Position numbers and translations under genes: made by a program. Below are positions 18,665-47,017 of a stretch of 64,000 nucleotides of DNA, one piece after another; position 1 is the stretch's first letter; every line of letters starts with the position of its first letter. Source of the stretch: Romanomermis culicivorax (taxonomy: Eukaryota > Nematoda > Enoplea > Mermithida > Mermithidae); contig CAWUHX010000014.1 in the NCBI GenBank assembly GCA_963922205.1, positions 556,001 through 620,000 of the forward strand, read 5' to 3'. The notes beneath the pieces were generated by a model. The model searched no databases. It was not told where the DNA came from and was given only the letters and a program-made list of their open reading frames with translations.

Positions 18665-21600
18665 ATGACTTTCGAATTTATTTTAGCTATTTCCCTCTGC
18701 TTGATTCCAGGATATGAAGCGGCCTGTCTCAAGCATGGTGAGCGTGCTAATTTTGCAACAGATTAATACGTCAAGTGAAGGGTCACTGCAGGAAATATTC
18801 CTGTTTGGCTGCAGTTACCAGGTTCCGTTTATTTTGAAATAATTGATGCAGTGGTCAGAATTTCCATGAATGCAGCCATATCAGTGATCAAGAAGTTCAT
18901 TCTGATAATCTTGGAATGATTGGAATGAGTGATCACCAAGGAGTGTGTATTCCGGAGGAGGAGTTTACCGAAGAGGGTCGACAGCCTTTCATTATTTGGA
19001 ATAAAAGTTTGGCTGTGTCTTCGCTGCATGGATCACAGCGATAATGACTACTTTAATCGATCGTTGATACGTTTCAGATGAATATATGCCAGGAGCTACA
19101 GAGTCAATGCGAATTTGTCAGGTACCGTTCATGGATGGAAGCTGCAGTAGCCGATTTTGCATACCAAAAAATTTAGCCGGGCGACCAGCCTGTTGCGCTC
19201 ACAGCTGTCTATGTTCAGATCGTCCACAGTGAGTATCAATATCTAGGATTTGTAAAAAATCTACTTTCAATCCTCTACCTTACATGATGAGCCTTAATTA
19301 TGCACCATGCATATACTTGGGTGGGTTTGGAGGATACTGATCCGGGCATTGCCCTAGCTGATCCAAGGCAGAATTTCGATTTTTTTTTGAAATTTTACAT
19401 TTTCACAGGAAAACTTGAAAATTTTATGTAGAAATGTTGAAAGTTTATAGGGAGTAAAGTTTTTTCTCGCTAAAAGTGGAAGGGCTGAGTAAGAAAAATT
19501 TTAAAATGATTATTCTGGTCACTTTTTACCGATTTCTGAGCAGTTGCAAGAAAAATTTCTGCTGATTCCACCAGTTCAATTTTTCAAGCTTTATATGTTT
19601 GAAAAGCTCTTTCAATGTTACATACTCATTTAATGAGCACTGCTCATTAAAAATATCTGCCTCTAAGAAAACTTACTGGTGGTCGATTTTCGTGCTCTAC
19701 TACGTGCTCAAGAAACACGGAAAGTATGGAAAGCCAGTTTTTTTCAAAATCACTGCACCATCGGAGACATGAGGTTAAGCGACACTTGTAGCTAATTCCT
19801 GGAATTTTCTTCCCGAGAAGTTGGCGGGCCATAATGTCGATTACTAAACGTGCACAAATTTAATTGGTCGGTCATATCAATTTTTTTCATCTTGATTTCG
19901 AAAAAAACTAACCAACTAAGAAAAAACTATCAAGATGATTTTTTAAAATGATGAGCATGATTTCTTGTGTGTTAAATACTGAAATAGCGATTGCGATTTT
20001 AACTCGATTTTTTCGTCATAATCTTGAATATTCGATATAAAATGTCATCCGTCATGTGGCAATTTTGGAGAAGTCATGACGCAGTAAAAACACGTTTTCT
20101 TACATAAAATGATTCTATTGATATTCCGCATCCGAAAGAAAAAAGTGTTTATTCAAATTATAAAATCTTAAAAGCCGAGCCTCTTTCCCAACTTTCGGTT
20201 TCGCAATCGAAAATTTTTCGAGATCAAGCTTTTGCTTTTATTATATCCTAAAGATGTTCTTAAAGATATTTTCACAAAGGGCTCTTGAGAGAATTCCTAA
20301 TACGCTGGTTGGGTCATAATCAAAAAATTTACATTGGAACATATGACTGTGTAGAAAAGTTTAATAAGCAAAGTAGGTGTAAGCACAATCTCAAGAACAT
20401 TGTGGGAAACATGCCACTAGATGAGTTTCCTATAAAGGTTTAATATAAAGAAATATTATGGCGAAAATAGCAACTATCATCAAAAATATATTGAAGCACC
20501 CTGTTTTACGTCCCACTTTCCTGCAGCTATCTTGTGATCAGACGAACGGATAGGGTTATTTTTTGATATTTGAGACAAAGGATTCCTTACAGCTACTCAA
20601 AATTTAAAGGCTCAAGTGCAGTCGGCAGGTCCAAAAAAAGTCAAAAACACGATGAGGATGACCTGATAGAACTAAACTCAGTCAAACTGGACGTCTTTCC
20701 TCACCCTTGTCGGCAGTGCTCTTCACATTTTTTACTGATGGCGATATCTCACTTCCGGCGTTAAGCCTAACCATGGGTATGAAACTATGATTGAAGGAAC
20801 CTATGATTACATAACTACGGTTACTAAACAGTTCAAAGACAACAAACTTTCAAGAACCTAGGCAACCAAGGTAACAGTCGGACATGTAACTGAGGTCACA
20901 GTTCTGAAGGGTGAAGGGTCGAGTAACTTTCTGAGAGTGGAGAGTCATCGATTCCTTAAAATTTGAGTAAGGTCCTTAAAGAGAGAAAAATCATTTCAAA
21001 AGTCTGAAAAATAGTTCAGAACAGAAATTTTTGCTTCAAAAACAGCAAAAAATAGACTTTCTGACCAATAAAAATGATCATTTTTCATCAACAAGCAGAC
21101 ATTTTTCAGTTGGAGGTTCTTATGGCGACCATACACTACCAGGCGAAACTAACCGTCTATGCCGGTCGTGTCCAGGACGCACCCAGGACGCGAAAAGCAC
21201 ACTATACCGACAATAAAATTGACAGGCCATGTGCTTGTGTCACACAAAGCCAAAGAATTTTGCTGATGCTTCCTTCTTACCTCCCTATAGAAAGCACACA
21301 TTATTCACCAGATATAAACGAAAGGTCAACTGTTATCATACTGTAGGTCAAAACAAAGTGCATATCCACTACACATTATGAAAAAACTATGATTGACAAT
21401 TATTGCATGAATGTCACTTACTAAGAAAGATGAAAGTTTTCTTTGTGCTGCCGAAAAAGACGCGTTCCGGACGCGACCTGGACGCGTCCAGGACGCATCC
21501 CGGACGCGAAATTTTGAGGGTTAGTTTCGCCTGGTAGTGTACGACAAGCCATATGATTGGCAAATCTTGAGGGGGTCACAATATCGATTATGGTCAACGA

Positions 21601-22250
21601 TTTATGTGCGACTCCCATGGCACCTGCACAAATAAATGTGTAATTACAGAACTATATACTTGTATGGCATAGAAATATTGGGTTGAGCGTCAGCTGAAAA
21701 TTCCTTTACAGAAAGGCTTAGAACTCAGTTGAAATTGATCACAATGCTTCAAAATTTTGTATTTGGATGTTCCTCAGTGTTTTCTCTAAAAACTGAATTT
21801 TTCTCTCTTTAATTTCCAAAATTTTGCAACAATTTTTTAAATTTTCGTGTTAAATGTGAATATGCCCAAAAAAGAAATTTCTGCTTGGGCCTCAATCACA
21901 TTATGTATCAACCATAAAAGTGCTCAACAAAAGTAGAATTTGATAATATTCTGATCATATATTGAAATCAGCATCTAATTGTTTTCAAGTTGAACATATG
22001 TGAGAACTCGTCACTACTCTATTTTGTGAAAATATTCACTAAATACTTGAAAAATATTTGAACATGTAAATATCGCGAAGAAATTTGACTTTTTAGACAG
22101 AATTACATCAGTTTGATACAAAAAGATATCATACAAACTGAATGATCATTGCAATGAACAAATTTTTCTATCATTTTTTTCAGATGTCGTCATGGTCAAC
22201 TCTCATTTACAAGAAGGAATATGCATACGTGTGAAAAAGTACTCTATTGA
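18665..22250 (+). CDS. Secreted ten-cysteine peptide, copy 1 (three exons)
   Basis: Exons 18665-18737, 19078-19228 and 22184-22250 give a 96-residue protein. Residues 1-19 form a signal peptide (FILAISLCLIP core, cleavage likely after YEA). The mature part has ten cysteines in the pattern C-x16-C-x8-C-x4-C-x10-CC-x3-C-x1-C-x5-C-x14-C, identical in all three copies. Introns are GT-AG in phases 1 and 2, with acceptors GTTTCAG and TTTTCAG. Intron 2 (about 2.95 kb) holds a MITE (21134-21539). The exon 2 donor CA|GTGAGT overlaps an in-frame TGA (19230-19232), so intron retention would give a 75-residue, 8-Cys form. An ATTAAA follows the stop at 22300-22305. The CC-x3-C-x-C core recalls inhibitor-cystine-knot peptides, but I do not recognise the family. 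It could be an effector, antimicrobial or signalling peptide; function is unknown. Confidence 0.8.
21134..21539. mobile_element. MITE in intron 2 of peptide gene 1
   Basis: 406 bp with perfect inverted termini (CACTACCAGGCGAAACTAAC...), flanked by TA at 21132-21133 and 21540-21541, as in Tc1/mariner insertions. Subterminal CCAGGACGC-type repeats occur on both arms. It carries no transposase and so is non-autonomous. Confidence 0.85.
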
Positions 22251-22299
22251 AATTTTTGCTTTAGTTTATATTTGTTTTATGCACGGGTTAAATTTTCCG

Positions 22300-22305
22300 A
22301 TTAAA
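22300..22305 (+). terminator. Poly(A) signal of peptide gene 1
   Basis: ATTAAA about 50 bp after the stop codon. The same hexamer sits at about the same distance in genes 2 and 3, within a conserved 3' flank. Confidence 0.55.
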
Positions 22306-22689
22306 TTCTCCATTTTATCACGTTTGTAAATAATAGCTCATGCTCCTCTGCTTTGGTTCCACAAAATGGCTAATTTGCTTGATTTTAGTGACAGATTTAT
22401 CAACAAATCGTTGATCAAAGTTGCACGTCGTCACTGTCGTTCAAAACGTAATGGGAAGAGACCACTCACTCCGAACATAGTTTAGAAAATTTAAATTTAT
22501 TGCGAGAAAAATCCTAACCTTGAAAACCTACGTCTTCCAGCAATGGTCGCCTTAAGTTAGGCTAAGTTTCTGTGAGTCAGAAAAATTCTAAATTTGCATA
22601 CTGACGATGTCATATTTGGGTTATTGTCTTTTGAAGTAAAAAATCGTCAAAGTATGACTGACGTTAACCAGATAAAAACAATCCCTATA

Positions 22690-22870
22690 GTTCCCCTTCA
22701 AGCTTCAAGCATACTCTCTACATCGTGGTCGAATTTTACATTTTAAAGCTTCGAGTGCACTTTGTGCATGAACATCGAATTTAAAAAATTAAAGCTTCGA
22801 GTGTACTTCCTACGCCCCCTCCCATATTCCCTACACATTATACGAATTGGAATCGTCGGCTATACTTTCT
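22690..22870 (+). repeat. Minisatellite with ~46-bp degenerate unit
   Basis: About three to four units of the type AAAGCTTCGAGTGTACTTTC, with CATCGTGGTCGAATTTTA. The reverse complement of the array at 53650-53880 has the same unit. Confidence 0.65.
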
Positions 22871-23323
22871 ACATCCACCGTATGGCTGAGGCAGTATATT
22901 TTGATGATGTGCATGTTTTGTAAATGGTTGTATACTCCCTGTATGGGCCTGTATAACTACTGGAGATCGTCAGAAACTCTCATGGATTAAAAACCCAAGG
23001 AATTTGCAATGATATTGTTTATAGAGCTGCTCAATTTCTGAAGACTGTGCCTAATTTCTATAGATGCTTACAATAGAAAGCCAAGCTTGCTCAATGTATC
23101 AGAATGTTACTTTTAACATTGCTTGTACAATATGTAACGTACATGCTTGTAACATACATGCTAACGCAGTACTGTAAATATATGGTGTACACTATGCAAT
23201 ATTCATTTATTAAATATTATTTCATTTCTTAATCTATCGTCTCAAGGGTGTCTGGGATTCACACCCAAACATTCCTGTAAATTTATGTGAAGTACTTTAT
23301 TTTGATCCTTCCACACCCCAGTA
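22871..23323. other. Spacer before E3
   Basis: AT-rich, with short CATGCTTGTAACATACATGC-type repeats around 23120-23170. No gene seen. Confidence 0.4.
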
Positions 23324-23327
23324 GCCG

Positions 23328-23901
23328 TGTTGTAGTGTGTTTTCCGCTGATTTTTTATCGTTTTGTCAAAGTGCGTTAGAGGCCCGCAGGTGGCAAGTGG
23401 AGAGAGCAACGTGGACCACCAGTAGCCATCTTACTGTAGCACACATCAGTACGCGTGCGCTGGTCTCTCTTTTTATTATCATTAGTGTTATAATTTTATA
23501 TGTTTGTTTACTAGTTGTGCGCCCCGTTGGCCACCACTAGTCCATACTCGCCGCCTCCCACCACGCCTTTTTCGTCTTTCTCTCGCCCGTGCGTGGGAGT
23601 TGATTTAGTGTTTTCATTCTTCTCGCCCGTCTTCGTTTGGTTCACGTAAGTTTTGTGTTTTATTGCGTAACATTAAAAGGTAGAAAAACTCTCCCCTTTC
23701 GACCTTGTGCAATAAGGGAGACAATTAAAGAAAGCAGATCTTTCTTTAATTGTTGGGACAATTAGTGTTGGGGTTTAAGTACCAGGAATTAGATTATCGG
23801 GTAAACGTGGGTCTGGGAAGCACGTACATTAAGGACGCAACCTCAGAATCCCAATCCTGCTCACGCCGCATCATAACCGCCCCAACGACCAAAATACAAC
23901 A
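23328..23901 (+). repeat. 5' LTR of E3
   Basis: 574 bp, TGTTGTAGTG...AAAATACAACA. It is about 97% identical to the partner at 28695 by manual comparison. Confidence 0.93.
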
Positions 23902-23902
23902 C

Positions 23903-23920
23903 TGGTGACCGCTTGGATTG
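23903..23920 (+). promoter_or_regulatory. Putative primer binding site of E3
   Basis: TGGTGACCGCTTGGATTG starts one base after the 5' LTR. The TGG start fits pairing with a tRNA 3' CCA end. I cannot name the tRNA. Confidence 0.5.
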
Positions 23921-24039
23921 TACGCTGCCTCTCCCCGCCGTTGCGTTGCATCCGAAAACGCTCAAAGAGTCCAAAATTCGACCTCGCCGCAGTTGCGCCA
24001 AGAGGTACAAAAGAGGTTATTATACCCTGCGAAAAAAGA

Positions 24040-25366
24040 TGCCAACGGTAAGCAACACACCGCCGGACTTCACCCGCTTTCCGTTGCGATCCAGTTCTCC
24101 GAACGCCGCCACAGCAGCACGCCGCGCCCTCAGTTTTGATCAAATGCTGTTGCCGCGACCGTCAAATATTATGCAATCGACAGGGGTACCCACGGTAAGC
24201 CTCCCGCCCCATAATCCGCTTTTGTCTAATTTCAGTACTCCCCCGCTGGACGGGACGGCACAACCGCAAGTACCGCTCATTCCCACAACCACAGTGATGA
24301 TCAATTCTCAACCCCCCCGGTCGCTAAATCAAAACCCCCTTACCGCTGCCGAAAATTACGTTAACGCGCAGCCCGCACCGCAAATGCCGCCACCAAGTGC
24401 CCCGGCCCGAAGTAACAATGAAGAAAGCTGTCGCCAGAACCGATTCCTCCCAATCCTTTGTCAATATCGAACCACCGCAAGCCCCAGCCGCCACCTGTGC
24501 TTCAGTAAACAATCACCGCAGTAGCCTAACCATCGCAAACGCCAATGAAGTTCAAAATTTTCGAATTGAAGCACGACCAACTCAATACGGCCGCCGCCCG
24601 CATAACCAACAATGTTCCTACGGTACAAACGATCGATCAGATTATCGGCGCCGTCTCCGACCAATTCCAAGCCCAGCAATTACGCGTCCAACGCGAAATC
24701 CAGGAACAAACCAAAGCCACTAACGCGCGTTTCACAGCACTCGCCGAGCAAATGCAACAATTGATTTCCACAACCGCCGCCGCAACTAATGCGCGCAATC
24801 TGCCTACACCAAGACCGCCGCTGGTGTCCTCACGGTTTCACGGCGAAGAAACAAGAGATATTTATATTCCAAACGAAACTCTCCGTGAAACTGAACTGGC
24901 TCCAGTCTCAGTTTACTACGAGGATATGAGCCGCGCATCACCTTCGACTATGACTGCGCCCACTGACTCACTCTGCTGTTGAATTACGATGCCTATCAGC
25001 ATATCCTTAGGCAAGCACAACTAAAAATGCTAACTTAAAGCTAACCTCGATGCCGCAGCCATCGCCAGCAAAGAATATTTTGATCGCAAAGCCCCAAAAC
25101 GCGAGTTCGTTGTCAACGACTTGGTTCTTTTAACTAACACACGCAAAGCCAACAAAATCCAACCCGACTTCATCGGACCTTTTCTCATCACGGACGCCTC
25201 CCACACAGCCGAAAACATTGTCACCATCGACTCACTCGATGCGCCCGGCCGCCCGCAAACCGTCTCCATAACGCGTTTAAAACCATTTGTTCCACGACCC
25301 GCAAAGGACGCGTTCGATAACGAAGAAGGTACACCAGGTATGCCCCACACTTCTCGCCGGCAATAG
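24040..25366 (+). pseudogene. E3 gag N-terminus fused to integrase C-terminus by deletion
   Basis: A likely gag start is the ATG at 24040 ([14 protein letters not shown]). Pro/Asn/Gln-rich sequence follows. After frame changes near 24440-24545 comes a helical, coiled-coil-like region (DQFQAQQLRVQREIQEQTKA, about 24657-24717). RFHGEETRDIYIPNETLRET (about 24835-24890) then gives way near 24900 to sequence matching E2 from about 11485, the integrase C-terminal part (NTRKANKIQPDFIGPF, about 25135-25182). The product cannot be a functional polyprotein. Confidence 0.8.
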
Positions 25367-25817
25367 TTTGCTTTAAAATTTTTTCTTTTGTGATACGGCG
25401 CTCATCAGGCCGCGTTGTAAATAATCTTTACGTCTGTTAATTTAGATCATGGCGACTTCGCTGACGAGCAACGATGCACGGCAGTTTCGAAACACTTCCC
25501 TTCCACCCGTCTTTTACAAACCGACTCGACCCACTTTACACCATCACCCTACATCTTGTCCGGTCCCCACATTTTATAATAGGAGGGGGTCTCTTCTTTA
25601 ATGTCAGGTTCTGTTCAGCGCGAGGCCATTCGGTTTATTTCCGCCCGACCCTGGGCGCTATCACTCTCATAAGACTAATCGGGAAAGGCTGATTATAGTC
25701 CCCATTAACATAGCGGTGTTTGTGTTGCTTTTCATAACGGTAGTGTTTGCATTTTCTTACTTTACACTTTCTTCACCTTTCAGCAGCTTATTCTTTTACT
25801 ATTTCATTTCTACTTTT

Positions 25818-28277: not shown

Positions 28278-28576
28278 TTAGGAAAAAGCTTTTGTACAGT
28301 AATTTTGTTTTCTTTGTTCTTGTTTGTTTTTCTTAACCTCATTTCAACCGGTTGTTTAATTTCTAATCTCGCTCGTGCTTTATATTTTTGTACTAGTGTT
28401 TCCAGCGCATGTGCAGCCGACGCTGCAACCACACAGTGAGTTGACCGCTGGTGGCCCGCTACACGCCCCCACTTGCACCACTTTTATCCTTGCCTCCGCC
28501 GCCGGACGCCCTATTGTCGCCGCCCCAAAAATCGGCTCAAACTACCCCAACAACTCCGCCGGCCCCACTGTGTGAC

Positions 28577-28681: not shown

Positions 28682-28694
28682 AAGGGGGGAGGGG
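28682..28694 (+). promoter_or_regulatory. Polypurine tract of E3
   Basis: AAGGGGGGAGGGG directly before the 3' LTR. Confidence 0.85.
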
Positions 28695-29268
28695 TGTTGT
28701 AGTGTGTTTTCCGCCGATTTTTTATCGTTTTGTCAAAGCGCGTTAGAGGTCCGCAGGTGGCAAGTGGAGAGAGCAACGCGGACCACCAGTAGCCATCTTA
28801 CTGTAGCACACGTCGGTACGCGTGCGCTGGTCTCTCTTTTTATTATCATTAGTGTTATAATTTTATATGTTTGTTTACTAGTTGTGCGCCCCCTTGGCCA
28901 CCACTAGTCCATACTCGCCGCCTCCCACCACGCCTTTTTCGTCTTTCTCTCGCCCGTGCGTGGGAGTTGATTTAGTGTTTTCATTCTTCTCGCCCGTCTT
29001 CGTTTGGTTCACGTAAGTTTTGTGTTTTATTGCGTAACATTAAAAGGTAGAAAAACTCTCGCCTTTCGACCTTGCGCAATAAGGGAGACAATTAAAGAAA
29101 GCAGATCTTTCTTTAATTGTTGGGACAATTAGTGTTGGGGTTTAAGTACCAGGGATCAGATTATCTGGTAAACGTGGGTGTGGGAAGCAAGTACATTAAG
29201 GACGCAACCTCAGAATCCCAATCCTGCTCACGCCCCATCATAACCGCCCCAACGACCAAAATACAACA
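28695..29268 (+). repeat. 3' LTR of E3
   Basis: 574 bp, TGTTGTAGTG...ATACAACA, followed by the GCCG target duplication. Confidence 0.93.
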
Positions 29269-32442: not shown

Positions 32443-34279
32443 ATGGACGTGATTTTCATATTGTTTGCAGCGGTTTTCCTATGCTTGATCCCAGAATTTG
32501 AAGCGATATGCGAAAAGCACGGTGAGTGTATGCTAATTATGAAGCACACGGATATACCAAGAACAGGATTCCTGCAGGAAATATTCCTAAGGCAGTCCAA
32601 TTAGAGATCAGGGAATCAATTTTATCAATCAGGAAATGGTTGAAAAGAATGATCATCAAGGAGTATGTATCACGAGGGAAAATTCCTGAAACTGAGTCAA
32701 CAAGCCTTTCATTATTTTGAATAAAAGTTGGCTGCAACCTCACTGCAATGATCGTTTAAAAACTAATGGCGTAGAGTGATTATTACTATGTAACTTAATC
32801 CTTGAAACACTTCAGTTGCATACATGCCAGAAGCTACAGAGTCGATGCGCATTTGTCAGGAACCACGCAGGGATGGAAGCTGCGGCAGCCGATTTTGCAC
32901 GCACAAGAATTTTTTCGGGCGACCAGCCTGTTGCGCTCATAGCTGTCTATGTTCTGAACGTCCAAAGTGAGTATCATTATTAAAGTTGGCTAAAAAAGGC
33001 GCTTTCAAACCCTACTCTACCTGAAGAAGCTCGACCATACCTGCAGGTTCTTGGGGTGGGTTTGGAGGGTCCCTACCTGACGCTTCGCAGTATTTCAATT
33101 TTTTGGGACTTTTAAATTTTTAAGGAGAAAAATTTGGAATTTCATTTCACATGAAAAAATAATTTTTTATTGTTGGAGCTGAAATAGCCCACTGAGGAAC
33201 ATCTAAAAGCAAAGTTTCAAAGAATTCTGATTAATCTCGATTGACTTATAAGGATTGTTGAAAAAATTTGTGGCTGACCACCCAACCCAAATTTTCATGT
33301 TTAACATGTATAACCTTATCTCTTCCAATGTAATATATTTGTTTTGAGGAATGCCATTCAAAAGAATCTGCCTCCAATGAAATTTACAGTTGTTTTACTG
33401 TCATTCTCTATCTACTCAGGGAACTGAAAACAAATTAAAATTTGAATTAGTTTCCGAATGATTGCTTTTTAGTTTAAAAAATAAGCATATTTGATGCTTT
33501 TCCGAAGATAAAAGAAAAATGGAAATTTCGTTTAAAAATAGCTATATTAAATATTTTGTAAAAAGTTCACATTTTTTTCTCGTTTGTAGAGATAAAACAT
33601 GTCTTCTGTTATCCACATTTTAATGCAGTATTTCAAGCTCTTAAAGTTTTATATTGAAGTGTGCTGCAGATAAAATTGAAAAATTACCTTTAAAATGTGA
33701 CTTTTGGATGTTTTGATGAAATCTTGACCATTTACCAGCCTGACCACAAAACTTTAAAAGGGAATTAGAATGTCAACCAGAAAAAAAGTACAACGATTAT
33801 TCAAGACTTATTGACTCATAATATTTTGGCTTCATTTCTACAAATAATGCAACTGCGAAATGTAAGTTTATGAAAATCAAGTTTTGGCGTCTCAAGCTCA
33901 TTATGCTTCAAGAATGAAATTGATTGGCGTACGTTAAATTTGATAATATTTTGATCACGTGTTAAAATCAGCATCGGATTTTTTTCAAGTTGATCTTGTG
34001 TGAGAACTCGCTAGTATTCCACTCCAAGACTGTATCCAACGACGACTAAAAAAATAATAGAACGTTGTGTAGATTGTGTAGATTGCAAACGAACCTATCA
34101 TTAATTAAGTTTGATTTTAGAGACAGAAGAAGTTGTATTCGATACACAACAAATTTTCATACAAACTCAATAACATAAAACTGAACAAATTGTTGTTCTA
34201 ACTTCTCTTTAGGTGTCGCTATGGTCAACTCTCATTTACAAGAAGAAATTGGCGTTCATGTAAAAAAGTGTTCTATTAA
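32443..34279 (+). CDS. Secreted ten-cysteine peptide, copy 2 (three exons)
   Basis: Exons 32443-32521, 32816-32966 and 34213-34279 give a 98-residue protein. The signal peptide (IFILFAAVFLCLIP core) ends near FEA. Cysteine number and spacing are identical to copy 1. Exon 2 keeps YMPEATESMRIC, GSCGSRFC and GRPACCAHSCLC. Exon 3 keeps CRYGQLSFTRRN, with a final cysteine seven residues before the end. Intron 2 is about 1.25 kb, with donor AA|GTGAGT overlapping the in-frame TGA at 32968-32970 and acceptor CTCTTTAG. All splice phases match copy 1, and no stop or indel interrupts any exon. ATTAAA lies at 34326-34331. It is 4.2 residues-per-turn neutral, that is, I see no helix or repeat clue to its function. 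Role unknown; secretion is inferred. Confidence 0.8.
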
Positions 34280-34325: not shown

Positions 34326-34331
34326 ATTAAA
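34326..34331 (+). terminator. Poly(A) signal of peptide gene 2
   Basis: ATTAAA 47 bp after the stop, in the conserved 3' flank. Confidence 0.55.
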
Positions 34332-35049: not shown

Positions 35050-35291
35050 GTCTTTCTCATTTGGTATATAGCTAAACGAAAACCCAGACTCTGAAACAGT
35101 TGTTCTGGACAGCAAAATATTTCTTTTGGTCGAGCTCTGTTAGAAATGTCTAAGATAACAACAAACGGAAAAAATAAAATAAAACAGCCCAAGTCATCCC
35201 CATTTAATATTCGCTTCAACAAAACCAAAGATAATGTTGATATAGAAGAAGCTGTAAATTTTTCACAGATCATCAAAAGAGAACCCCATAC

Positions 35292-37016
35292 TTGAATGTA
35301 ACAGTCAATGATCAGCTTACAGTAAAGGCGTTGATTGATATGGGAGCTGTCTATTCTAATATAGACAATAATATTGTAAGACAATTGCCAAATGTACGAA
35401 TTCTAGCTACAATAGATCGGCCTATAGCAGCTAATAAATGCCCAATCACGCTTCGGGGGGCAGTTTTCCTAACCGTCTCATCATACGATATTTCTGAAAG
35501 GCTCTTAGTTCAAATACAAGAAAGTTGTATGGCAGAACTGATCCTTGGCACAAATTTTCTCAATCGATTTAAAAGCATTGAATTCAACTGGAAAAATTCT
35601 TTTATCCATTTCAAAAATTGTCAAATTCCTTGTGATGGCATGCATTTTAATTCCCCATCAAACAGAAGTGCCATGTTCATGGAGGAAACCCTGTGTCTAG
35701 ATCCTAGATCAGTAAATGTTATATCTGCTATTGTACCGATGCAACATGCAAAAATTTCCCAGGACATTATTTTTGAACCAAAAATAATGTACAAAAAATT
35801 GCAAAACATTTATTTCGCCTCATCTATTAGCAAAATCACTAATGGTCATATATATACTGATCCAAGTTATTAACCTAAATCCGTTTGTTGCTAAACTGTA
35901 CTCGAGCATGAAAATTGGTGACATCAAATGCTTTCTTACTCAACCATACCAAAATGGTATGATAAACTTGATTGGAAACCAATCTTTGCAACTTAAATCA
36001 TGGCTCATCACTCTTGAGTGGATAAGAAAAAATTGTAATGTTTCATCAAATTTGAATGAATCAGACAGGCAGAAACTATTTAGCCTGTTATTGCTATATC
36101 CTAATATATATGCTCTAGATGAAAAAGAAACAGGGAAAACGGCATTAGTTCAGCATCAAATAAATACAGGGGACCATAAACCTATCTGTAAATTTCCCTT
36201 CGGAACATCCCCGAAAGAAAAAGAAATTATTACAACTGAAGTAAGGGCCCTAGAAGCTAAACAAATTATCCAAAAAAGTATTTCACCATGATCAACAAAT
36301 TCAGTCTTAGTAACTAAAAAAGATCATGGCCATCGTTTGTGTATCCATTTTCACAGTTTAAATGAAGTTACGAAAAAAGACATCTATCCGTTACCAAGAA
36401 TCGACGATATACTTGATACATTGAACCGCATGTGTTATTTCTCAACCCTGGATCAGGCCAATGCCTATTGGTCTATTCCAATTTCAGCCAATGATCATGA
36501 AAAAACAGCCTTTATAACCTCAACTGGCTTATATGAATTTAATTATTTCCCTTTTGGGTTGTGCAATGCACCCACAACATTTCAATGATTGATGGACTTA
36601 CTGTTATCTGGCCTACAATGGTCATCATGCCTAGTATATCTATATGATGTATTCATTTTTTCCAAAACCCATGACCAAATGCTGTCTAGATCAAAAGCAG
36701 TTTTAGATCGCTTGCAAAAAGGAGGCATGAAATTGGGTCCTAATAAATGCAAATTCAGTTTTCAAGAAGTGATATATCTTGGATATAAAATATCAGCCAA
36801 AGGTATTAGCCCGGACGACACTAAAATACAAGCTGTAAAAATGATCTTAGCTTCAAAATCAGTGAAAGAAGTAAAATCATTTTTGGGCTTAATTTCATAT
36901 TATAGAAAATTTATTCCAAGCTGTGCCCAACTGTGTCAACCTTTGTCTGCATTACTAAAAAAGAATGTCAAATTTGTCTGGGGGAAAGACAGAATACAAC
37001 TTTTGATTATCTAAAA
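35292..37016 (+). pseudogene. EX pol: protease and reverse transcriptase, broken
   Basis: The protease begins VNDQLTVKALIDMGAVYSN. The catalytic D-T/S-G is D-M-G here (35337-35345). GTNFLNRFKSIEFNW (about 35560) is the typical end of a retropepsin in this family. A frame change follows near 35870. The RT includes HFHSLNEVTKKDIYPLPRID, FSTLDQANAYWSIPI, FPFGLCNAPTTFQ, then a TGA (36586-36588). The active-site box reads YLYD (36637-36648) where YLDD is expected, so one metal-binding aspartate is lost. The thumb region KCKFSFQEVIYLGYKIS and SFLGLISYYRKFIPSCA follow. Stops at 36289-36291 and 37012-37014 further break it. Confidence 0.85.
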
Positions 37017-37990
37017 AATAAACTTATGAACTTGCCTATTTTGATACATCCGAACTTTTCTGAACCGTTCATCTAGCAGACAGATGCTTCTTCGGATGGT
37101 ATAGGTGCAGTTCTTACACAAATTGATTGTGAGGGTAAAGAGCACCCTGTCACCTTTGCAAGTAGAATGCTAAAATCAGCAGAAAAAAATATCCCATTAC
37201 GAACTCGAAACTTTAGCACTAGTAGAGTTTGTAAAATATTTCCGACTTTATCTTTATCAACAGGAAGTCATGATCCAAACTGATCACACTGCAGTAAAAG
37301 CTGTATTGGAAAAATTGAACCCTAATGGATGCATAGTTTTGTTGTATTTTAAATGTAGTTGGGGCTTTAAGTCTCAGGCAGGAGTGGGATCCCAGGGTTC
37401 ATCCTTAATGTACGTATTTCCCATGCCCACGCTTACCAGATTAACTTAATTAATAGTACTTAAACCCGACACTAATAACCCCTACTAACCAAGGAAAGAT
37501 ACTTCCTTAATTGTCTCCCGAATTAAATAAATACAAGAAAGGAAAGACCTTTCTTCAAATTTATCTTACGCAATGAAAAACACTTACTTACAAACACGAG
37601 GGGGGGGGAGAATAAAAAACAATTCACTCCCACACACTGAGGAGAAAGCAAACCAAGACGAGCGAGGCGACGACTAGGATATATATCCAATGGGGAACAT
37701 AAGTTATAAAAACACACAAGAATAATGCACATGGAGAGAGCCAGCGCATGCGTACCGACGTGTGCTACAGTAAGACGACTGTTGATGGTCCGCGTTGCTC
37801 GCTCCACTTGGTACTTGTGGGGCTCATGCCTGGATTTCACAAAAAATGACAAAATCGGTGGAAACACACTACAACAGTTTGCTGGGGACTTGCATTAGCT
37901 GGCAGGAAACTAAACATTCAACCAAGAAAAGGTCACATGAATGCCAATGCCAACACTTTATCAAGATTACCTGATGTTACTGCTGAGCCA
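37017..37990 (+). pseudogene. EX pol: RNase H, split by the solo LTR
   Basis: QTDASSDGIGAVLTQIDCEG (about 37079-37135) and TDHTAVKAVLEKLN (about 37281) are typical Ty3-like RNase H segments. The sequence stops at the inserted LTR and resumes at about 37881 with CWGLALAGRKLNI and GHMNANANTLSRLPD. A TAG (37075-37077) and a frameshift near 37190 are also present. Confidence 0.8.
37340..37876 (-). mobile_element. Solo LTR inserted in EX, reverse orientation
   Basis: 537 bp reading TGTTGTATTT...CACTACAACA on the plus strand, with the perfect 4-bp duplication GTTT at 37336-37339 and 37877-37880. It belongs to the E1-E3 LTR family, diverged from each copy here. It shows that the E family was active after EX had inserted. 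Confidence 0.92.
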
Positions 37991-38059
37991 GTGTTGATAT
38001 AGAAACTGACACTATAGCACATCCACAAGAATCAAAACTTGAATTCAATGTCAACTCTA

Positions 38060-39289
38060 TTTCTGATGAAGAAATCAATTTACAGAAGTTGCAAAAAGAT
38101 GATCAGTTTTTGATAATCATGTCACTTAGTGACCAAGAAAAATGTGAAGGTTTTCCTAACTATATGCTTAAAAATGGTATCCTATCCAAAAATGAAAATG
38201 ACATTGGGAAAATAGTGATTCCTCAATCATTGATAAACTTGGTTATACAAACTCATCAAGACGATGAATTAGCGGGACATTTTGACTCAAGAAAGGCAAT
38301 ACAATTAATTGAAAAAAGATATTTTTGGCAAACCCTAACAAAAGACGTAACGAACTACTGTAAAACCTGTACAGTTTGTCAGAAGAATAAACCAATACGT
38401 CGAAAAATCAAAGCTTCTCTAAAAGAAATTCCAATTGATGGGCCTTTTGAAAGAGTTGCTGTCGATTGTATAGGTCCCCTGCTCTTAACTGAAAAAAGGA
38501 AATCGATTTATAGTTGTATTTATCGATTATTTCACAAAATATATTGAGGCGTTCGCCACAACTGACATTACAGCTAATACCATAGCACAACTTTTTGTTA
38601 ATCATATAGTTTGTCGTCATGGAGCTCCAAGCATTTTGCAATCCGATCAAGGGACAAATTTTACCTCAAAGCTCATGACAGAAATCACTAGTCTTTTTAA
38701 TGTGCAAAAAATCCACACATCAGGGTACCATCCAATAGCGAATGGTGAAGTTGAGCGCCCCAATCAAACCTTGATCACTTGGATCCATATGTACATTCAG
38801 AATCGCAATCATGCTAATTGGGATCATCATTTATCCTATGCAGTTTTTGCAACAAATATACATTCTAATGCAAGCACATATCATTCGGCTTTTCAGTTAG
38901 TCTATGGACGTTTACGGAAACTTCCGATTGATGCTGCCTTACATTTTAATCCCTCAGTTTACTTCGTTGATCTTGATGACTATCAACTGGAAGTTAAAAA
39001 ACATTTCACACAGGCACTCACTATAATTCAAGAATCCAGAAAGCACAACAGAAATATAAACAAGCATATGATAAAAACGAGAAAATGTGATTTATAAAAT
39101 TGGTGACTATGTTTGGAAAGAGTCACAGATGATCCGGAAAAATCAAACTAAAAAGTTGCAATCTATTTTCCAAGGTCCCTACAAAATCCTTGATATAAAA
39201 TATCTTAATCTTTTTTTGAAAAATCCCAACAATTCAGCTGGTGTTGAGACTATTCACGTCAGTCGCTCTGGACCTTTTGTTGGGTATAT
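38060..39289 (+). pseudogene. EX pol: integrase, frameshifted
   Basis: The zinc-binding part contains THQDDELAGHFD (H...H) and CKTCTVC (about 38361-38380). The core has AVDCIGPL (D, about 38464), LQSDQGTNF (D, about 38645) and GEVERPNQT (E, about 38750), so the D,D,E residues are present. One frameshift near 38515 separates the first D from the rest, and another near 39090 precedes KKLQSIFQGPYKILD. The last element-derived residues are VSRSGPFVGY, after which the frame runs into (TA)n and the peptide-exon fragment. Confidence 0.85.
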
Positions 39290-39441
39290 ATATATATATA
39301 CCATGATCATCAGAGTCTATGCACTTTGTCAGCAAACTCAGAGGAATAGAAGCGGCAACAGTCGATTTTGCCTGAAAAAGTATTTTTGTGGGAAACCAGC
39401 CTGTTGTGCTTATGACTGTCTGTGTCACATAGTTTTGTGCT
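39290..39441 (+). pseudogene. Orphan exon 2 of the ten-cysteine peptide family (copy 4)
   Basis: It aligns with exon 2 of copy 3 (45210-45360). Shared runs are CAGAGTCTATGC, AACAGTCGATTTTGC, GAAAAAGTATT and GGGAAACCAGCCTGTTG, giving NSRFC, KKY and GKPACCA in frame. The GSC cysteine is changed to glycine, a new cysteine appears, and the GTGAGT donor is lost, so the frame ends at TAA 39439-39441. No exon 1 or 3 lies nearby. It is joined in frame to the EX integrase through a (TA)n tract. Confidence 0.75.
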
Positions 39442-41315
39442 AAAATATGCTGAGAACAAAATTTTAAAATGACAAGAAATGTCATTTTTACCGTTTCAGC
39501 CCGGAAATGCTTTCTTTAATTTTTTTGCATGTCTCTGATGAAGTTCTGTTCAAAGCCAAAGCATTTTTCCACCATGGAGTATTTTGTCAAAAGTTGCGAA
39601 AGACATAAAAAATCGCAGATATTTGACCTTTGAACCTTCAAATAAAATTGTTTTATTTTTTATTTTCTATTAGATCTTGAATTTCTAACTCGCATTCAGA
39701 ATCACACACACACAGTTTTTTGTCAACTTTTGAAATAAATGTGCTTGCTTAGTATTCTTTTTTCATGTTCAAACACAAATTTAAATTCGCGTTCATTGTA
39801 GATCACGGAAAGTTGGTTAAAATTTTTTCGAACCAATAGATGCGCCCTAATGTCCCTGCGCTCTAATATCCGCGCCCTAATGTCCGGTCACAATCTCATC
39901 CACCTAGAGTAATTGTACTACAGCAAACATGCACAAAGGCATGAGCATGATATTCAAATTCTTAGTTGAGGTTTGAATATCATAATGTCTGCTCATTAGT
40001 GTTTTTTTACTAAGGTTACTCATTCAGTATTGATGTGGAGCACTTTCACTTAAATAATAAATCAAATTTCATTGAAAAATTATCTCTAATATCGAAAAAA
40101 ACAAAAAAATTAAAAAAGACGGTCGACAAGAAAAATAGGATTGAGAAATTGAAGACACGAAAGCTTATAAAGTCCATTCATATCCTAAATTTACTGAATG
40201 AATACAGTTAGGTTTTATTTTCATCTCTGCTTTTTAGTTTGTTATTTCTTCGGCTCTCAATTTTCGCATATTCAAATAACCAAGCTGCTAAATAATTAAA
40301 AAAATTTCATTTTGGAAAACACAAATTTATATCCCCCATGAAAAATCACTCATTCTAGACCAATATTTTGTGGAGCTTATAATTCTGAGAATGAGGCCTT
40401 TTTTTTGCTGTTGGGAACAAGATTACTTACGATTTTTGGGTGAGGGGCCATAAAAGGAGAAATATCAGTTATTTTTTCCAACAGAGCCCGAAAAAGAGTT
40501 CAAGTAATAGCAATTTGTAGGTAAAATATATAAATTAATTGATTGTTTTGGATTCAGAAAAGACCATTTCCCATCAAAAAAGATTTTCTCAAATTTATCG
40601 ACCAAAAAGTTTTTTTGGCTAGCCCGTTCCAGTCATGTAATTTTAGAATGGCGCCTCCTTTTGATAGACAGTGTGATTTACTGTGGGGTTATTATTACAT
40701 GTTATGAGAAATAAGGAAATGTAGCAGGAATAAAAAATGCTGAACCTATTGCTGTAGAACACAAGAGAGAACTGCAGGATACTAACAGGTAGAATCCAAC
40801 AAAGACAAGAAGATTTTTGGCAACTTTATCTGGAACTCCCAGAATCTCGAGTACCAACAAAATTAGTTGATCTTATATTCAATAGTAAACATTGCTTATT
40901 CTCGACCCAAACGGCACAACATAAGCAATAAAATTAATATGAAAGCTGAAAAATGGGAGTAAGAATGGCGAAAAGTAGTGAAAACACGAACATTTATACT
41001 AGAACAACAAATAACTTGCATGCATTTTTCATAATGTAATTGTGCACGAATAGTCACAGGGTCAGGGGTGAAATGAAATTGGAATGCAGGATTTTGACGA
41101 TAGAAGATTAGAATCGAAAGAAGAAAACTAAAATGAGAAGAATAGGAAAGTTTGTATGGAAAGATGAACAATTAGTTTTTATGTAACGAGTAGGCAAAAT
41201 AAATTTAAAAGATAATTTTCCAACAGTAGAAAGAAAAGAAAAGTCAGTTTGATAAAAAAAGACAGGAATAAGCGGTAATTCAAAAAGAAAGATGATAATA
41301 TTGCACCGGACTACT
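39442..41315. other. AT-rich spacer
   Basis: No gene seen. A short GCGCCCTAATGTCC-like motif occurs three times at 39842-39890. ORFs on the minus strand (40896-41329) are Phe/Ser-rich from A-rich plus-strand sequence and look like chance. Confidence 0.4.
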
Positions 41316-42699
41316 GGGGCCGGTTGCAATATTCGGGTTTAAGACCGAGCTCGCGATTATCTCCAGCAAAATAATCGCGAGCTCGCGATCAGCAGTTGCG
41401 ATAACCTCGGGATGATCCCAACGTCGCGATTATCTCGAGCTCGAGATAATCGCGAGCTCAGACTTAAACCCGAGCTCGAGTAGTGCGGTTGCAATAAATT
41501 TTCTAGTCTAATTCTGATCGCGAGGTCGGTTTCAGTGGCACTCAAAAGTTAATCGTCATCGGTAGTAGGTTTGAGTCCGAGAAATTTGTTGTTTTTTATG
41601 CTTGTCATAGTGAATTTTCTACATAATCAACTAAATAATAACCAAGCGAATCGAGTTGGATTTGTTCAACATTTGGACAATAAATATTTGGTTTTGGCCT
41701 GTATCTATTGTTGCTAAAATGCGAATTCCGATTTTCCGGATTCGAATTTTTCTTTTTCTAATTTGAGCTTTTCGCTTTCCGACGCTAATTTTTCTTGCTT
41801 TATAGAAACACTGTTTCATTCTAAAAGATCCACTTTTTGCCACTTCGGCTCTTCAACCATCAAACCTAGGCTTCCCCACGAAACTTTCGATGAAACAGCG
41901 GCCAATTCAGATAAACTAGTATCGGATTACAGACTTCCTCGGATCCCTTGGAATGCTGCTGGTGTTCTTCTATGATGGTTGGAGAATTTTCGGAAGGTAG
42001 ACAAGAGTCAGGCGGTCCACCAACCGTTTTCCAAACCGCTTTTTTTCCTTTCTCAATTCTTCTTTTGTTCGGCTCTTTACATTTTTCAATGTAATTCTTG
42101 TATCTTCCAGAGACCTATAGACAATGGGATTTTGTGCATTGTCTTCGGCTCTGATTATATTCCAGACGTGGGGCCGGTTTAATCAAAGAAACTTAAGCTA
42201 CAGCTGAGCTGCAGCTCAAGCTGTAGCTTAACTATATATTACACCATTCCGTAAACATATCGAGGTTAAGATGCAGATGAGCTGTCCAAATCCAAAACTA
42301 ATCGATATTTGAGACAAATTTCTCTCAAAAGTACTTCTTTTCTAGGTGTTCACTTTGGAATGCGTTTTCTCCTTGAAACTACTGGAAATTTGTGGGAACA
42401 AAAGACATACGAACAGCAAACAGAAAAACAAACAATGTTGGACACAGTGTTTTTTCACCAACTTTTGTTTACTTTTCACTTCATGCGCGTAATATAATGG
42501 ATTGGCGATGTTTCTTCCTGGAAGGCCGAGATAATAGCGAGCTCGGACTAAAACCTGAGCATCAGTTAATCTCGAGCTCGATTTTTTTATTGCAACCCGA
42601 GAAAGATGAAACTGACCTCGCGATTAGCTAATTCTAAGCATTAGCAACTATATACCGAGTTCGCGATGATCCTCAGCATTAGTTATTGCAAACAGCCCC
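41316..42699. mobile_element. Harbinger-like DNA transposon or large MITE
   Basis: The ends are inverted: GGGGCCGGTTGCAATA at 41316 and the reverse complement of GGGGCTGTTTGCAATA ending at 42699. Subterminal regions are dense in TCGCGATTATCTCGAGCTC-type palindromes on both sides. A nested GGGGCCGGTTTAATC with AAGCTACAGCTGAGCTGCAG lies at 42172. The flanking 3 bp do not match (ACT and TGG), so the exact ends are uncertain. A minus-strand ORF (41631-41843) rich in Lys/Arg/Ile could be the tail of a SANT/Myb-like Harbinger partner protein, but that is weak. Confidence 0.6.
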
Positions 42700-43424
42700 T
42701 GGAGTTTACTTGACTTCTTACAATACTATTTATTCAACGATTCCTCAGACATTGTATTCGAGTCGCTCTCTGTCGATCGGAGATTAGGAGCTTCCTGTGT
42801 ATTACAAGTTCCCCTATTCATTCACCATTCTCCAATGAGTCAGGTTAGCGAAACTACTCAGACAATCCATATAATAGGTGAAAGTCTAGGATATCCTGCA
42901 AGACTGCTGATCTGCACGTCTTTTCTCCGCTAACCAAGCTATGTGGAGGATAATGGAACAGATTACGTATTTCTGGTGGTGTTTGCAGAGCAGGGTGGTT
43001 GAGGACAAACAACTACAACACCTCTCTGATCATCGAGGATAGAGGCTACTATATGATCAGCTATTCGAAATTGGTGGCGAAAGAAAATAAGTATGTACTA
43101 AGAAATAAAAGAAGGTTATAATGTTGATGTGGAGATGTGGAAATCCATTCAGAGATTCACATTAAAAGCACTTGAGTAAAGCCAAGTTGCAACAATTGGA
43201 GAATGTTACTCAAACCATCTGAATTAATGCCAAGCGCCCTGCTAGAAGAATAATCTAGAATCGAATTCCTCTCTACCAAACGCATCAATGTTTATACAAA
43301 ATATTTAAATGCCAAAAACACGAAACGAAAATAACGTTTAATGCATGAACTGAAAATGGCAGATGCCTAGAGTGAAATTTGATGGACGGGCTTCCCATTC
43401 TTAGATGTCTGTAATTCCTTTTTG

Positions 43425-43619
43425 TTATCCTTATCACTCGAATAGTGTATAGGATCCTATTTTTCGTGCAAAAAAGTGACCTACGTCATCAGGGTTTCTC
43501 CAGTAATAGATGCAGTGATTATTATCCTTATCATTCGAATAGTGTATAGGATCCTATTTTTCCTGCAAAAAAGTGACCTACAGTCATCAGGGTTTCTCCA
43601 GTAATAGATTCAGTGATCG
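43425..43619. repeat. 97-bp tandem duplication
   Basis: Units 43425-43521 and 43522-43619 both run TTATCCTTATCA...GGATCCTATTTTTC...CAGGGTTTCTCCAGTAATAG with few differences. Confidence 0.9.
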
Positions 43620-44659
43620 AAAATTCGGCACATGCAATCCTTAAGCCGTACGCATTGTTGGCCGGCAAATTTTGATGGCCCGCAATTGCGGGTTGGTTGC
43701 GGCTCTCAGAATTGCATAATTTTGTACGGTTCCGGAAAAATGTTCAATCGGAAAACCTCAATGGTAAGCAAAGTTCCCCGCAATTTCCTAACATCATTAA
43801 CATAATACATACGGAAAATGACGCATTTACTGTACATGTCAAAAATGAATGATAATTTAAGTTTTTAATTTTTCAAGGGAGAGAGAAACCAATTAAAGTC
43901 AAATTTCCCTCGTTTAAGGTTTGTATTGTCACATTCTCTCAAATTGAAGTTCTTAATTGTTGAAACGTTTTTTTAGAGATGGACATTAATTTAGATGAAT
44001 TTTTCGTTTGGAGATATTTTTCTTCTCAAAAGTGGTAGAAAGTTTTGACGAAGAAATATGGAATGGTTCAGGCCGAGCGGGCTTTTAGAAAATTGGGTTT
44101 TCAATTGATAACACGATCATATTACTGTACTGTTCACATTCATTCAGGTATCTAGTGCTATTCAGCGCAAAATTCTGTATCGATTGCGGCTCCCAGAACC
44201 GTAAAAATTACTACACTCCAGAACTCATTGCGGGTCCATGCTGCGGGTCGGGACCCGCAAAATTTGTTTCTGGTTGCGGGTTACTAGCCGGCCACAATTT
44301 TTGAAATGTACAAAAAAGTGTGCAGGCTGCACTGTTTTTCGCACGTTGCGACCAACTATACCAGAGATCACATGTGGCAATTTTAGTGTCTTACAAACAA
44401 ATTGTGTATTAAGTTTATATTGTTGATGTTTTTCCTATAGGAAATTTGAAGAGCGAAAATATCTGTTTGAAAATTAGCAGAGCCGTAAGTGGTTGATCCA
44501 TATCTTATCATTTTTCAGAGTAGCTGTTATCGAAAACTGTGATATTAGTTGATAAATTCTACATTGGTAGTGATTTCATTGCCAAATAAGAGAAATGTCG
44601 ATGTGCTGTCAAGCAGCCGAGTAGAGTGAAAACTGGAACACTTTTTCAGCTCTAGCATG

Positions 44660-44677
44660 TTTACTCAGGTGATCATT
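44660..44677 (+). promoter_or_regulatory. Conserved upstream block, peptide gene 3
   Basis: TTTACTCAGGTGATCATT, 153 bp before the ATG. It has one change from genes 1 and 2. Confidence 0.5.
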
Positions 44678-44812
44678 TATAGATCTTCCGGCATTTACTA
44701 ATTTTCTGCATTACTTGTATGTGAAAAACAGAACATTTCGAGCAATATAGGAAACGTTTATTTAACTGCCTGCTTTCTTTCACACTCCTCTCACAATTTC
44801 GAACTTATAATC

Positions 44813-47017
44813 ATGATTTTCGTATTGATTGCAGCAATTTCCCTATGCTTGATCCCAGAGTTCGAAGCACTGGCATGCGAAACGTATGGTGAGTATATAC
44901 TGATTATGCAGCACATGAATATATCCAGAGCAAGATCCCGGCAGGCTGCAGTTTATATTCTCCATCAATATTGAAGTGGTTGATGTGGTGGTCAGAGTTT
45001 CCACAAACGCAGCCTCATTCTAGAGATCAAGAAGTCCGTTTCGATTTTCTTGGGATACTTGAAACAGATCATCGTCAAGGAGGACCAATTATGAAAAAAG
45101 GAAAAAACTGAAAAAAGTCTGGCTGCAGTCTTGCTGCATCGACATCCATTTCAAATTTAATGGAGTATAGCAATTATCGCTATTTCAATTCACCTTTGAA
45201 ACGTTTCAGATATATATATGCCAGGAGCTTCAGAGTCTATGCGCTTTTGTCGACAACCACACAAGAATGGAAGCTGTAACAGTCGATTTTGCGTGAAAAA
45301 GTATTATTCTGGGAAACCAGCCTGTTGCGCTCATAGCTGTCTATGTTCACAACGTCCACTGTGAGTATCAATATTTAGGCTAGGCTGCTTAGAAAACAAT
45401 GCTTTATATGTCCTACCTTTGCACAAATACCCTTTAACCACAAATGTTCTTAAGATGGGTTTGAAAGTTCCTGACCCAGAATAGCATCCCTACTCACGTC
45501 AAGAGAATCTTCATTTTTTATGGGATTTTTCATTTTTACAGGTAAACTTGTAAATTCTAAGTAAAAATGTTGAAAATTGGAAAACTATATTTTTCCTCGT
45601 TGGAACTATAAGGACGCACTCGAAAACACCTAAGATCAAAGCTTTAAACATTCTGATAAACTGTGACTGAGTTCTAAGAAACTCTGGAAAAAATTTGTGT
45701 CAGACATTTTACTAAATTTTAATGCTGATAGCAGTGGAAAATAGACAATTTTGATTTTTCTCATTTAAAAATGACAATTTTTTTGAACAAAATGAGATTT
45801 TTCTGTCTAGGGCTTTCTACGAATACCTTATGATCAGCCATACGATCGGAAAATATTGAGCAGAGTCACTGCATAAATTAACTTTGATTTCAATGGGAAC
45901 TTTTCTTGGCACTTCTCTCAAAAAAATGTACGACTAAAGTCATAGTTACATGTTCAGCAAAGAAATTTGAGACGTTAATCGCAGTTTTTTAATTCCTCAG
46001 AACATAGTCGAAGTTGATCACAATGCAAAAAAACATTTTTTATGGAAGCTTTTCGGTGTGAACTTAAAGTTCCAACAGCAAAAAAGGCGCTACCCCATAA
46101 TCCTCTACATTTTACATGAAATTTTTGAGTTTTCAGTTAAAAATGTGTAAACCTCAAAAGTGGAAATTTGTGGATCATTCGAGTGTCTGTTTAGTGTGCA
46201 CCATGGTTCTGCTCGAGGTCAGGACCCAACCCAACTCACTGCCAAGATTGTGTATCGCTACGGTACCATTACCTCATAAGTAAAAGGGAAGCATTTGTGT
46301 ATGCATCCTATCACTGTTTGTTTGTGAATATGATAAATGTTCTTCCTTACACACATTTTAATCCAGTATCTTCAACTCATTAAGTTTAATGCTAAAAACT
46401 AAATTCAAAAATGACAAAAAATCATTTTTGAACATTTTCAACCAAATCCAGGCTATATTTCAGTTTTACCACAAAACAAAAAACTGGATCAAGTCAAGCA
46501 GAAAGAAGAAACGTTTAGATCCAACTGTTTTCTAGCCAACTGTTATGCTCTGAGCACATTTCACTAATCACCAAACTAGGGAATGTGAGTTGAAGGAAAC
46601 CAAGTTTTAGCATCTTGATAAAACCATTTCTCATACACAAAATTTCTTGACACGTATTGATTTTGATAATATTTTTATCGGATACTTAAGTGAGCATCAG
46701 ATTGTTTTCCACTAGGTTGCACATGAGGATTCGTCAATATCCTAATTCAAAATGATTCTCAATGATAACTAAAATATTTGAATTTGTGTGGAATGTGGAA
46801 TGTGGATATCATGAACGAGTCTATTGCTAACTATATTTCAATTACAATTTCGCCCTGTAGACAAAAGAACATGATTTCTGAATGAATAAAACCTCATACA
46901 AATCTAATGATGATTGCCTTGAATAGGTTATCCTAATAATATTTCCCTAGGTGTCAGAATGGTCAACTCAAATTTACAACAGCCGAATTGCAGCCGTGCG
47001 AAAAAGTGTTCCTATAA
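44813..47017 (+). CDS. Secreted ten-cysteine peptide, copy 3 (three exons)
   Basis: Exons 44813-44888, 45210-45360 and 46951-47017 give a 97-residue protein. The signal peptide (IFVLIAAISLCLIP core) likely ends after FEA. The mature cysteines are at residues 22, 39, 48, 53, 64, 65, 69, 71, 77 and 92, the same spacing as copies 1 and 2. Exon 2 has YMPGASESMRFC, GSCNSRFC, and GKPACCAHSCLC; exon 3 has CQNGQLKFT and PCEKVFL. Intron 1 acceptor is GTTTCAG. The intron 2 donor CT|GTGAGT overlaps TGA 45362-45364, and the acceptor is TCCCTAG. ATTAAA lies at 47065-47070. Exon 2 and 3 lengths and phases are the same as in the other copies, while non-cysteine surface positions differ, which suggests functional divergence under a fixed disulfide frame. 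Confidence 0.8.

Follow-up and report, generated by a model that had tools for sequence, protein, structure and literature searches.

The window analysed here is a stretch of 64,000 nucleotides from the mermithid nematode Romanomermis culicivorax (C14:556001-620000, where C14 is contig CAWUHX010000014.1). It carries three genes, termed c1, c2 and c3, that are predicted to encode a small secreted peptide with ten cysteines, together with a broken copy of their second exon. The initial annotation had placed three plus-strand, three-exon genes here, and our independent rebuild returned its coordinates to the base. As it had also stated, exon 2 (151 nucleotides) and exon 3 (67 nucleotides) keep the same lengths and phases in all three copies; exon 1 measures 73, 79 and 76 nucleotides in c1, c2 and c3, respectively. 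The introns lie in phases 1 and 2, and all begin with GT and end with AG. The precursors are of the secreted type, with 96 to 98 residues, and the mature parts all carry the ten-cysteine pattern that had been claimed, C-x16-C-x8-C-x4-C-x10-CC-x3-C-x1-C-x5-C-x14-C (spacing 16-8-4-10-0-3-1-5-14). Features are listed below by position in the window, with E values from held-out exon profiles, that is, profiles built solely from m389, m476 and m500, three loci outside the window.

18665..18737, plus strand: c1 exon 1, rebuilt model, with signal peptide, first mature cysteine and donor GTGAGC (E 2.7e-7)
19078..19228, plus strand: c1 exon 2, with cysteines 2 to 8 (E 1.4e-22; UniRef record A0A915KQR0 contains c1 exons 1 and 2)
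22184..22250, plus strand: c1 exon 3, with cysteines 9 and 10 and stop TGA (E 4.5e-10)
22300..22305, plus strand: ATTAAA 3' of c1, possible poly(A) signal (read by eye; ATTAAA at the aligned position in c2 and c3)
32443..32521, plus strand: c2 exon 1, rebuilt model (E 7.8e-12)
32816..32966, plus strand: c2 exon 2 (E 2.4e-24)
34213..34279, plus strand: c2 exon 3, stop TAA (E 2.2e-7)
34326..34331, plus strand: ATTAAA 3' of c2, possible poly(A) signal (read by eye; alignment)
39290..39429, plus strand: broken exon-2 copy, most similar to c3 (83% identity) and interrupted by a frame change and a stop codon in frame
44813..44888, plus strand: c3 exon 1, rebuilt model (E 1e-8)
45210..45360, plus strand: c3 exon 2 (E 1.7e-24)
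46951..47017, plus strand: c3 exon 3, stop TAA (E 1.2e-5)
47065..47070, plus strand: ATTAAA 3' of c3, possible poly(A) signal (read by eye; alignment)

The similarity of these exons to the loci outside the window is far above chance. Each held-out profile ranks c1, c2 and c3 first, with E values of 8e-12 to 3e-7 (exon 1), 2e-24 to 1e-22 (exon 2) and 5e-10 to 1e-5 (exon 3). The broken copy, too, is among the matches of the exon-2 profile (E 4e-10). The best unrelated match has an E value of 0.13. Twenty dinucleotide-shuffled versions of the window, scored by the full profiles, reached at most 11.4, 15.4 and 12.1 bits for exons 1, 2 and 3, whereas the real exons, scored by the held-out profiles, reached 23 to 83 bits. 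Among five paralogue pairs, exon 2 is 71-83% identical with gaps in one pair, compared with 44-68% and gaps in all five pairs for intron 1.

The putative third exon is supported by its open frame, which includes two cysteines in all 11 intact models assembled from C14 (see below), by its held-out profile, by its identity, which is 60-81% in the five pairs versus 41-66% in the 200 intron bases next to it, and by its ratio of nonsynonymous to synonymous differences per site (pN/pS), which is 0.52 in 15 non-independent pairs. Counting against this model, the 100 bases downstream of exon 3 are also 56-66% identical, and in the m476/m389 pair their identity is no lower than that of exon 3 itself (60%).

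Three uncharacterised UniRef records, all from R. culicivorax, cover parts of the family. A0A915KQR0 corresponds to c1 exons 1 and 2 and ends at an in-frame TGA supplied by the intron-2 donor. A0A915IGS3 has exon 1 of c3 (or of its allele), followed by residues that we matched by eye to intron 2. A0A915HNT5 corresponds to m389, with exon 3 entered from the same acceptor in a different frame. Because all 11 models conserve exon 3, we did not adopt the two-exon gene annotated in this way.

Two further sequence elements accompany the genes. ATTAAA is a poly(A) signal motif, and it begins 47 to 50 bases past the stop codon in c1, c2 and c3; an aligned ATTAAA is also present in m389 and m476, and it is missing from the aligned position in m500. 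Roughly 150-175 bases before the ATG of c1, c2 and c3 lies a conserved stretch, GTTTACTCAG(C/G)TGATCAT, that is partly retained in other loci and that could be a promoter element or the splice acceptor of a leader.

The array of three that had been proposed is correct as to intact copies in the window, but the window also holds the broken exon-2 copy, for which we recognised neither an exon 1 nor an exon 3, and the cluster extends beyond the window. A search of the whole assembly (359,112,060 bases in 595 contigs) with c1 gave at least 18 exon-level matches, 17 of them on C14 and one on C454, and a search with c3 gave at least 21; these counts are lower bounds, since the best candidates alone were scored. 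In the stretches of C14 examined, which exclude 394-470 kb, we built 11 intact models. All lie head to tail on the plus strand; each has three exons joined at canonical splice sites and encodes ten mature cysteines, and ten of them have the cysteine spacing of the window copies. The eleventh, m389, has spacing 15-8-5-10-0-3-1-5-14 with the acceptor chosen here; two acceptors are possible, and the database record takes the other. The c1 search detected 13 exon-2 copies on C14, two of which are broken, namely that in the window and a counterpart near C14:744600. The match on C454 (75605-75767, minus strand) is a divergent relative of exon 2 with 163 nucleotides, the same phases and the same cysteines 2-8, although its C4-C5 loop has 14 residues, compared with 10 in the family; the surrounding 10 kb yielded no recognisable exon 1 or exon 3. 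A profile scan of the window and the other genome stretches examined revealed no additional copy above noise.

The 11 models probably do not represent 11 genes. Two runs of 100 N, at C14:481110-481209 and 656923-657022, flank the contig that contains the window (A), and 100 N is a conventional size for scaffold gaps; we take both runs to be such gaps, although masked sequence would read as N too. The stretch before the first gap (P) is colinear with A up to the last base of P, which corresponds to A:497616, at 91 to 95.5% identity. The stretch after the second gap (B) is colinear with A from A:497773 at B:671370 to A:612609 at 772000, the last base examined, at 93 to 98%. Colinear matches were counted if they spanned at least 500 bases at 93% identity or, for P, at least 300 bases at 90%; one further colinear piece at 89% was seen among plus-strand matches of at least 700 bases. 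Window positions 60000-61500 match C14:775372-776816 at 91%, in register with B, though lower. The homology of P to A thus ends about where that of B starts, as expected if P and B together represent one haplotype and A the other. Less tidily, the opening 14 kb of B (657023-671369) align with A only out of register, at 81 to 88% and in the manner of repeats, and P has one off-diagonal match.

These matches suggest that the window's contig is an alternate (unpurged) haplotype of its neighbours, set in a row with them by scaffolding. According to their report, the authors of the R. culicivorax assembly scaffolded with RagTag and noted "some remaining artefactual duplications" (PMC10879605). The haplotype interpretation yields the allele pairs m476/m493, m500/m674, c1/m727, c2/m738 and c3/m747, with m389 seen once, and we infer with good support that each haplotype has one broken copy and that there are six distinct intact loci. 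On the grounds of the N runs and colinear matches, rather than read depth, we therefore prefer six loci, some of them seen on both haplotypes, to a count of eleven genes; a true tandem duplication that produced eleven genes could still account for the arrangement. Gene counts for this part of the assembly may be inflated almost twofold.

The predicted mature peptide has about 77 residues (about 72 in m389). The signal peptide that had been proposed is consistent with composition: an N-terminal hydrophobic core of 12 residues, with mean hydropathy of 2.5 to 3.4, is present in all 11 models. The mature part is cationic in each of them, with a net charge of +2 to +9 and an isoelectric point of 8.1 to 9.3. 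Across the six distinct loci, all ten cysteines are invariant, and are among 27 invariant positions in 71 gap-free mature columns.

The initial annotation did not recognise the family, and neither did our searches. Pfam-A gave no family up to E 10 for any of seven members, NCBIfam gave no match for three of three, and PDB sequences gave nothing beyond chance; the weak matches rejected there as chance were complement factor H (E 9.7, 0.14 and 0.57), KIAA0733 (E 0.69) and viral fusion proteins (E at least 1.4). Queries of a protein database that includes UniRef gave 2, 3 and 0 matches, all of them among the three R. culicivorax records and none in other nematodes, although distant nematode relatives may be missed, because the method works from shared 5-residue words, of which it uses no more than 100. 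Rfam revealed no relative in the window, and viral and prokaryote contigs gave 39 and 49 pattern matches, respectively, none of which was confirmed. The family is not described in the titles and abstract openings searched, a set that leaves most subscription journals outside its coverage, and the main texts of three genome papers (two on R. culicivorax, one on Mermis nigrescens) contain neither the word "effector" nor the word "secreted".

We also compared the cysteine frame with known frameworks, using thirteen patterns tried on c1 and m389 (two of the 11 models); this scope applies to all framework comparisons in this report. Twelve of the patterns fit no subset of the cysteines. A loose EGF pattern does fit two subsets, both leaving out the CC pair, a result to which we gave no weight. 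Among the patterns that failed are those of Kunitz, WAP and antistasin.

The resemblance to knottins that had been suggested does not extend to their spacing. Like knottins, which have an inhibitor cystine knot, the family is small, secreted and disulfide-rich, with an adjacent CC followed by C-x-C, but no subset of its cysteines fits the canonical six-cysteine knottin spacing; in addition, it has extra N- and C-terminal cysteines and no sequence match. Two AlphaFold runs were made on the 75-residue database record of c1, which lacks cysteines 9 and 10. Their mean confidence (predicted local distance difference test, pLDDT) was 51 and 48, and both of these weak models have a hairpin around the CC pair, at precursor residues 52-65. 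A Foldseek search of PDB folds with the first model gave 12 matches with E values of 3.1 to 9.6, and none with E of 0.001 or less; PA1b, a knottin, was among them at E 8.9.

Other frameworks share the number or the order of cysteines. Macins are ten-cysteine antimicrobial peptides of nematodes and annelids with the cysteine-stabilised alpha-beta (CS-alpha-beta) fold. Like the family, they are secreted, and a nematode survey places them in clades 6/C and 9/V (PMC10506718). However, the CS-alpha-beta arrangement (CxxxC ... CxC) is not found in the two models, Pfam gave no match, and no macin is among the PDB matches. The TIL (Ascaris) protease inhibitors are secreted nematode proteins with ten cysteines, C-x3-C and C-x-C; they have no adjacent CC, their spacing does not fit the family, and again there is no Pfam match. 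Finally, the eight-cysteine motif of the lipid-transfer type (C-C-CC-CxC-C-C) has the same order as family cysteines 3-10, but the 3 and 5 residues around CxC are far too short for it, and the likeness is a coincidence of order only. The cysteine frame matches nothing in the libraries searched, whereas lineage-restricted clusters of secreted disulfide-rich peptides are already well known in parasites.

Patterns of substitution were used to evaluate the proposal that the copies diversify after duplication. Taken as positive selection, this proposal is not supported. The ratio of nonsynonymous to synonymous substitution rates (dN/dS) in the mature region stays below 1 in every one of the 55 pairwise comparisons of the 11 models, ranging from 0 to 0.89. 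For the six distinct loci, analysed with our own implementation of site models, the one-ratio model (M0) gives an omega of 0.43, and the nearly neutral model (M1a) places 49.5% of codons at omega 0.08 and the remainder at 1. Adding a positively selected class (M2a) improves the log likelihood by 2.36 (2dlnL 4.7, p about 0.09, 2 degrees of freedom), which is not significant, and power is low with six sequences. In this nonsignificant model, the extra class has a posterior of at least 0.5 at three codon columns: 61 (0.76) in the C4-C5 loop, and 89 (0.95) and 93 (0.50) in the C9-C10 loop. Segment values from the 15 non-independent paralogue pairs show that the C5-C9 core is the most constrained segment measured (pN/pS 0.21), the C2-C3 loop the least (0.83), and the C4-C5 loop intermediate (0.70). 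These values show constraint on a scaffold whose loops are loosely constrained.

The codons of the signal peptide (18665-18737, 32443-32521, 44813-44888 and counterparts) exhibit an unexplained pattern. Among the five presumed allele pairs they differ by 14 nonsynonymous changes and no synonymous change, and the mature region is constrained; many toxin families show the reverse.

We tentatively favour, with a probability of roughly 0.38, the interpretation that the family provides cationic extracellular defence peptides of the worm itself, of the antimicrobial type. The signal peptide would take the precursor into the secretory pathway, and the ten cysteines would pair into five disulfides and so hold together a stable scaffold, the core of which would be the most constrained part, from C5 to C9 (PACCAHSCxC). 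The C2-C3, C4-C5 and C9-C10 loops, which differ between copies, would make up the contact surface; the gene copies would supply different loops, and the positive charge would give binding to microbial surfaces. Such peptides would shield the juvenile while it lives in the haemocoel, or else the worm's free-living aquatic stages. A phylum-wide survey assigns the most limited set of antimicrobial peptides (AMPs) to clade 2/I nematodes, including R. culicivorax; it suggests that this clade may have divergent AMPs that its method missed, and asks how such worms cope with microbes (PMC10506718). We place defence ahead of a role directed at the host because the charge is positive in 11 of 11 models, because positive selection is not significant, and because of this survey.

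Several observations weigh against the defence interpretation. An AMP, an inhibitor and a host-directed peptide could all have such charge and cysteines, m389 is only weakly cationic (+2), and none of the AMP cysteine frameworks tried fits. The same survey gives R. culicivorax as the sole clade 2/I species with CS-alpha-beta genes (PMC10506718), and the argument from a gap in AMPs is therefore weaker for this species. Moreover, splicing of the family genes is predicted from conservation, and all three UniRef records depart from the models downstream of exon 1 or 2, which also suggests that such genes are easily miscalled in annotation.

The closest competitor, which we consider somewhat less probable than defence and on balance unlikely, is a host-directed effector: the juvenile would secrete the peptides into mosquito haemolymph, where the loops would bind a host immune or neural target and, for example, blunt haemocyte encapsulation or melanisation. 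A secreted disulfide-rich peptide in an obligate insect parasite, known from R. culicivorax alone in the database searched and encoded by clustered copies, is consistent with this role. Many venom families have a signal peptide that is more constrained than the mature part, and here pN/pS is somewhat lower in the signal peptide than in exons 2 and 3 (0.34 versus 0.52 in the 15 non-independent pairs); however, the values are 0.51 and 0.50 for signal peptide and exon 2 in three independent pairs, and the signal-peptide differences between presumed alleles, described above, run the other way. Effectors of some kind are to be expected, because the related mermithid Ovomermis sinensis suppresses host haemocyte encapsulation (PMC6391810). 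A diversifying effector is nevertheless unsupported, since selection mixes strong constraint with near-neutrality and the test for positive selection is not significant; such selection is a common, not a required, feature of effectors. Adults were the source of the RNA used in the long-read genome paper (PMC10879605). A bolder version, which we regard as clearly less likely than effectors in general, is that the peptides share a mermithid-specific scaffold unlike any solved fold, and that the juvenile releases paralogues with different contact loops into mosquito haemolymph to switch off haemocyte or phenoloxidase attack.

Three other explanations seem improbable. The genes could encode a matrix, cuticle, eggshell or signalling peptide with an internal role, duplicated without any link to defence or parasitism. 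Overall purifying selection agrees with this, and secretion is the only feature of the sequence that points outward, but near-neutrality at half of the codons and copy-specific loops would be unusual for a conserved internal ligand, and no relative was found in other nematodes at the limited sensitivity of the database search. Slightly less probable again is a protease inhibitor, in which an exposed C4-C5 or C9-C10 loop would be the reactive site against proteases of the host prophenoloxidase cascade or of microbes. The small, secreted, disulfide-rich scaffold with variable loops would suit this function, and codon columns 61, 89 and 93 lie in those two loops, although the model that singles them out is not significant overall; against it, no Pfam inhibitor family matched and the inhibitor spacings tried, TIL included, do not fit. 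Least likely of all, the copies could be unexpressed, decaying relics in a repeat-rich region, with frames still open through recent duplication. The broken copies and the retroelement fragments between the window copies would agree with decay, but frame, splice sites and ten cysteines are kept in 11 of 11 models, mature dN/dS is below 1 in every pair, and exon 2 is conserved above the introns.

Mermithids are natural killers of mosquito larvae, and we have met no named secreted peptide family for them. A family whose cysteine frame is unlike the frameworks tried, the loose EGF pattern apart, is a concrete candidate for mermithid secreted peptides or for the missing AMPs of clade 2/I.

Other elements in the window are as follows. 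On the minus strand, at 55478-58535, are two frames with PAN/apple domains, at 58191-58535 (with a signal-peptide-like start) and 56384-56794; the frames that come after the latter are presumably expansin-like, as judged by eye, with no Pfam match and no PDB relative. Pieces of long terminal repeat (LTR) retroelements are located at 35241-39097 and 10286-11089 and include reverse transcriptase, an integrase with H2C2 and rve core, and an aspartyl protease-like segment below the Pfam cut-off; the broken exon-2 copy starts about 190 bases downstream of the integrase frame. A repeat of about 140-175 bases is present in five copies on both strands (4011-4185, 6811-6981, 23327-23500, 28694-28867 and 37734-37876); the other copies are 78-97% identical to that at 23327, and the repeat is perhaps an element end.

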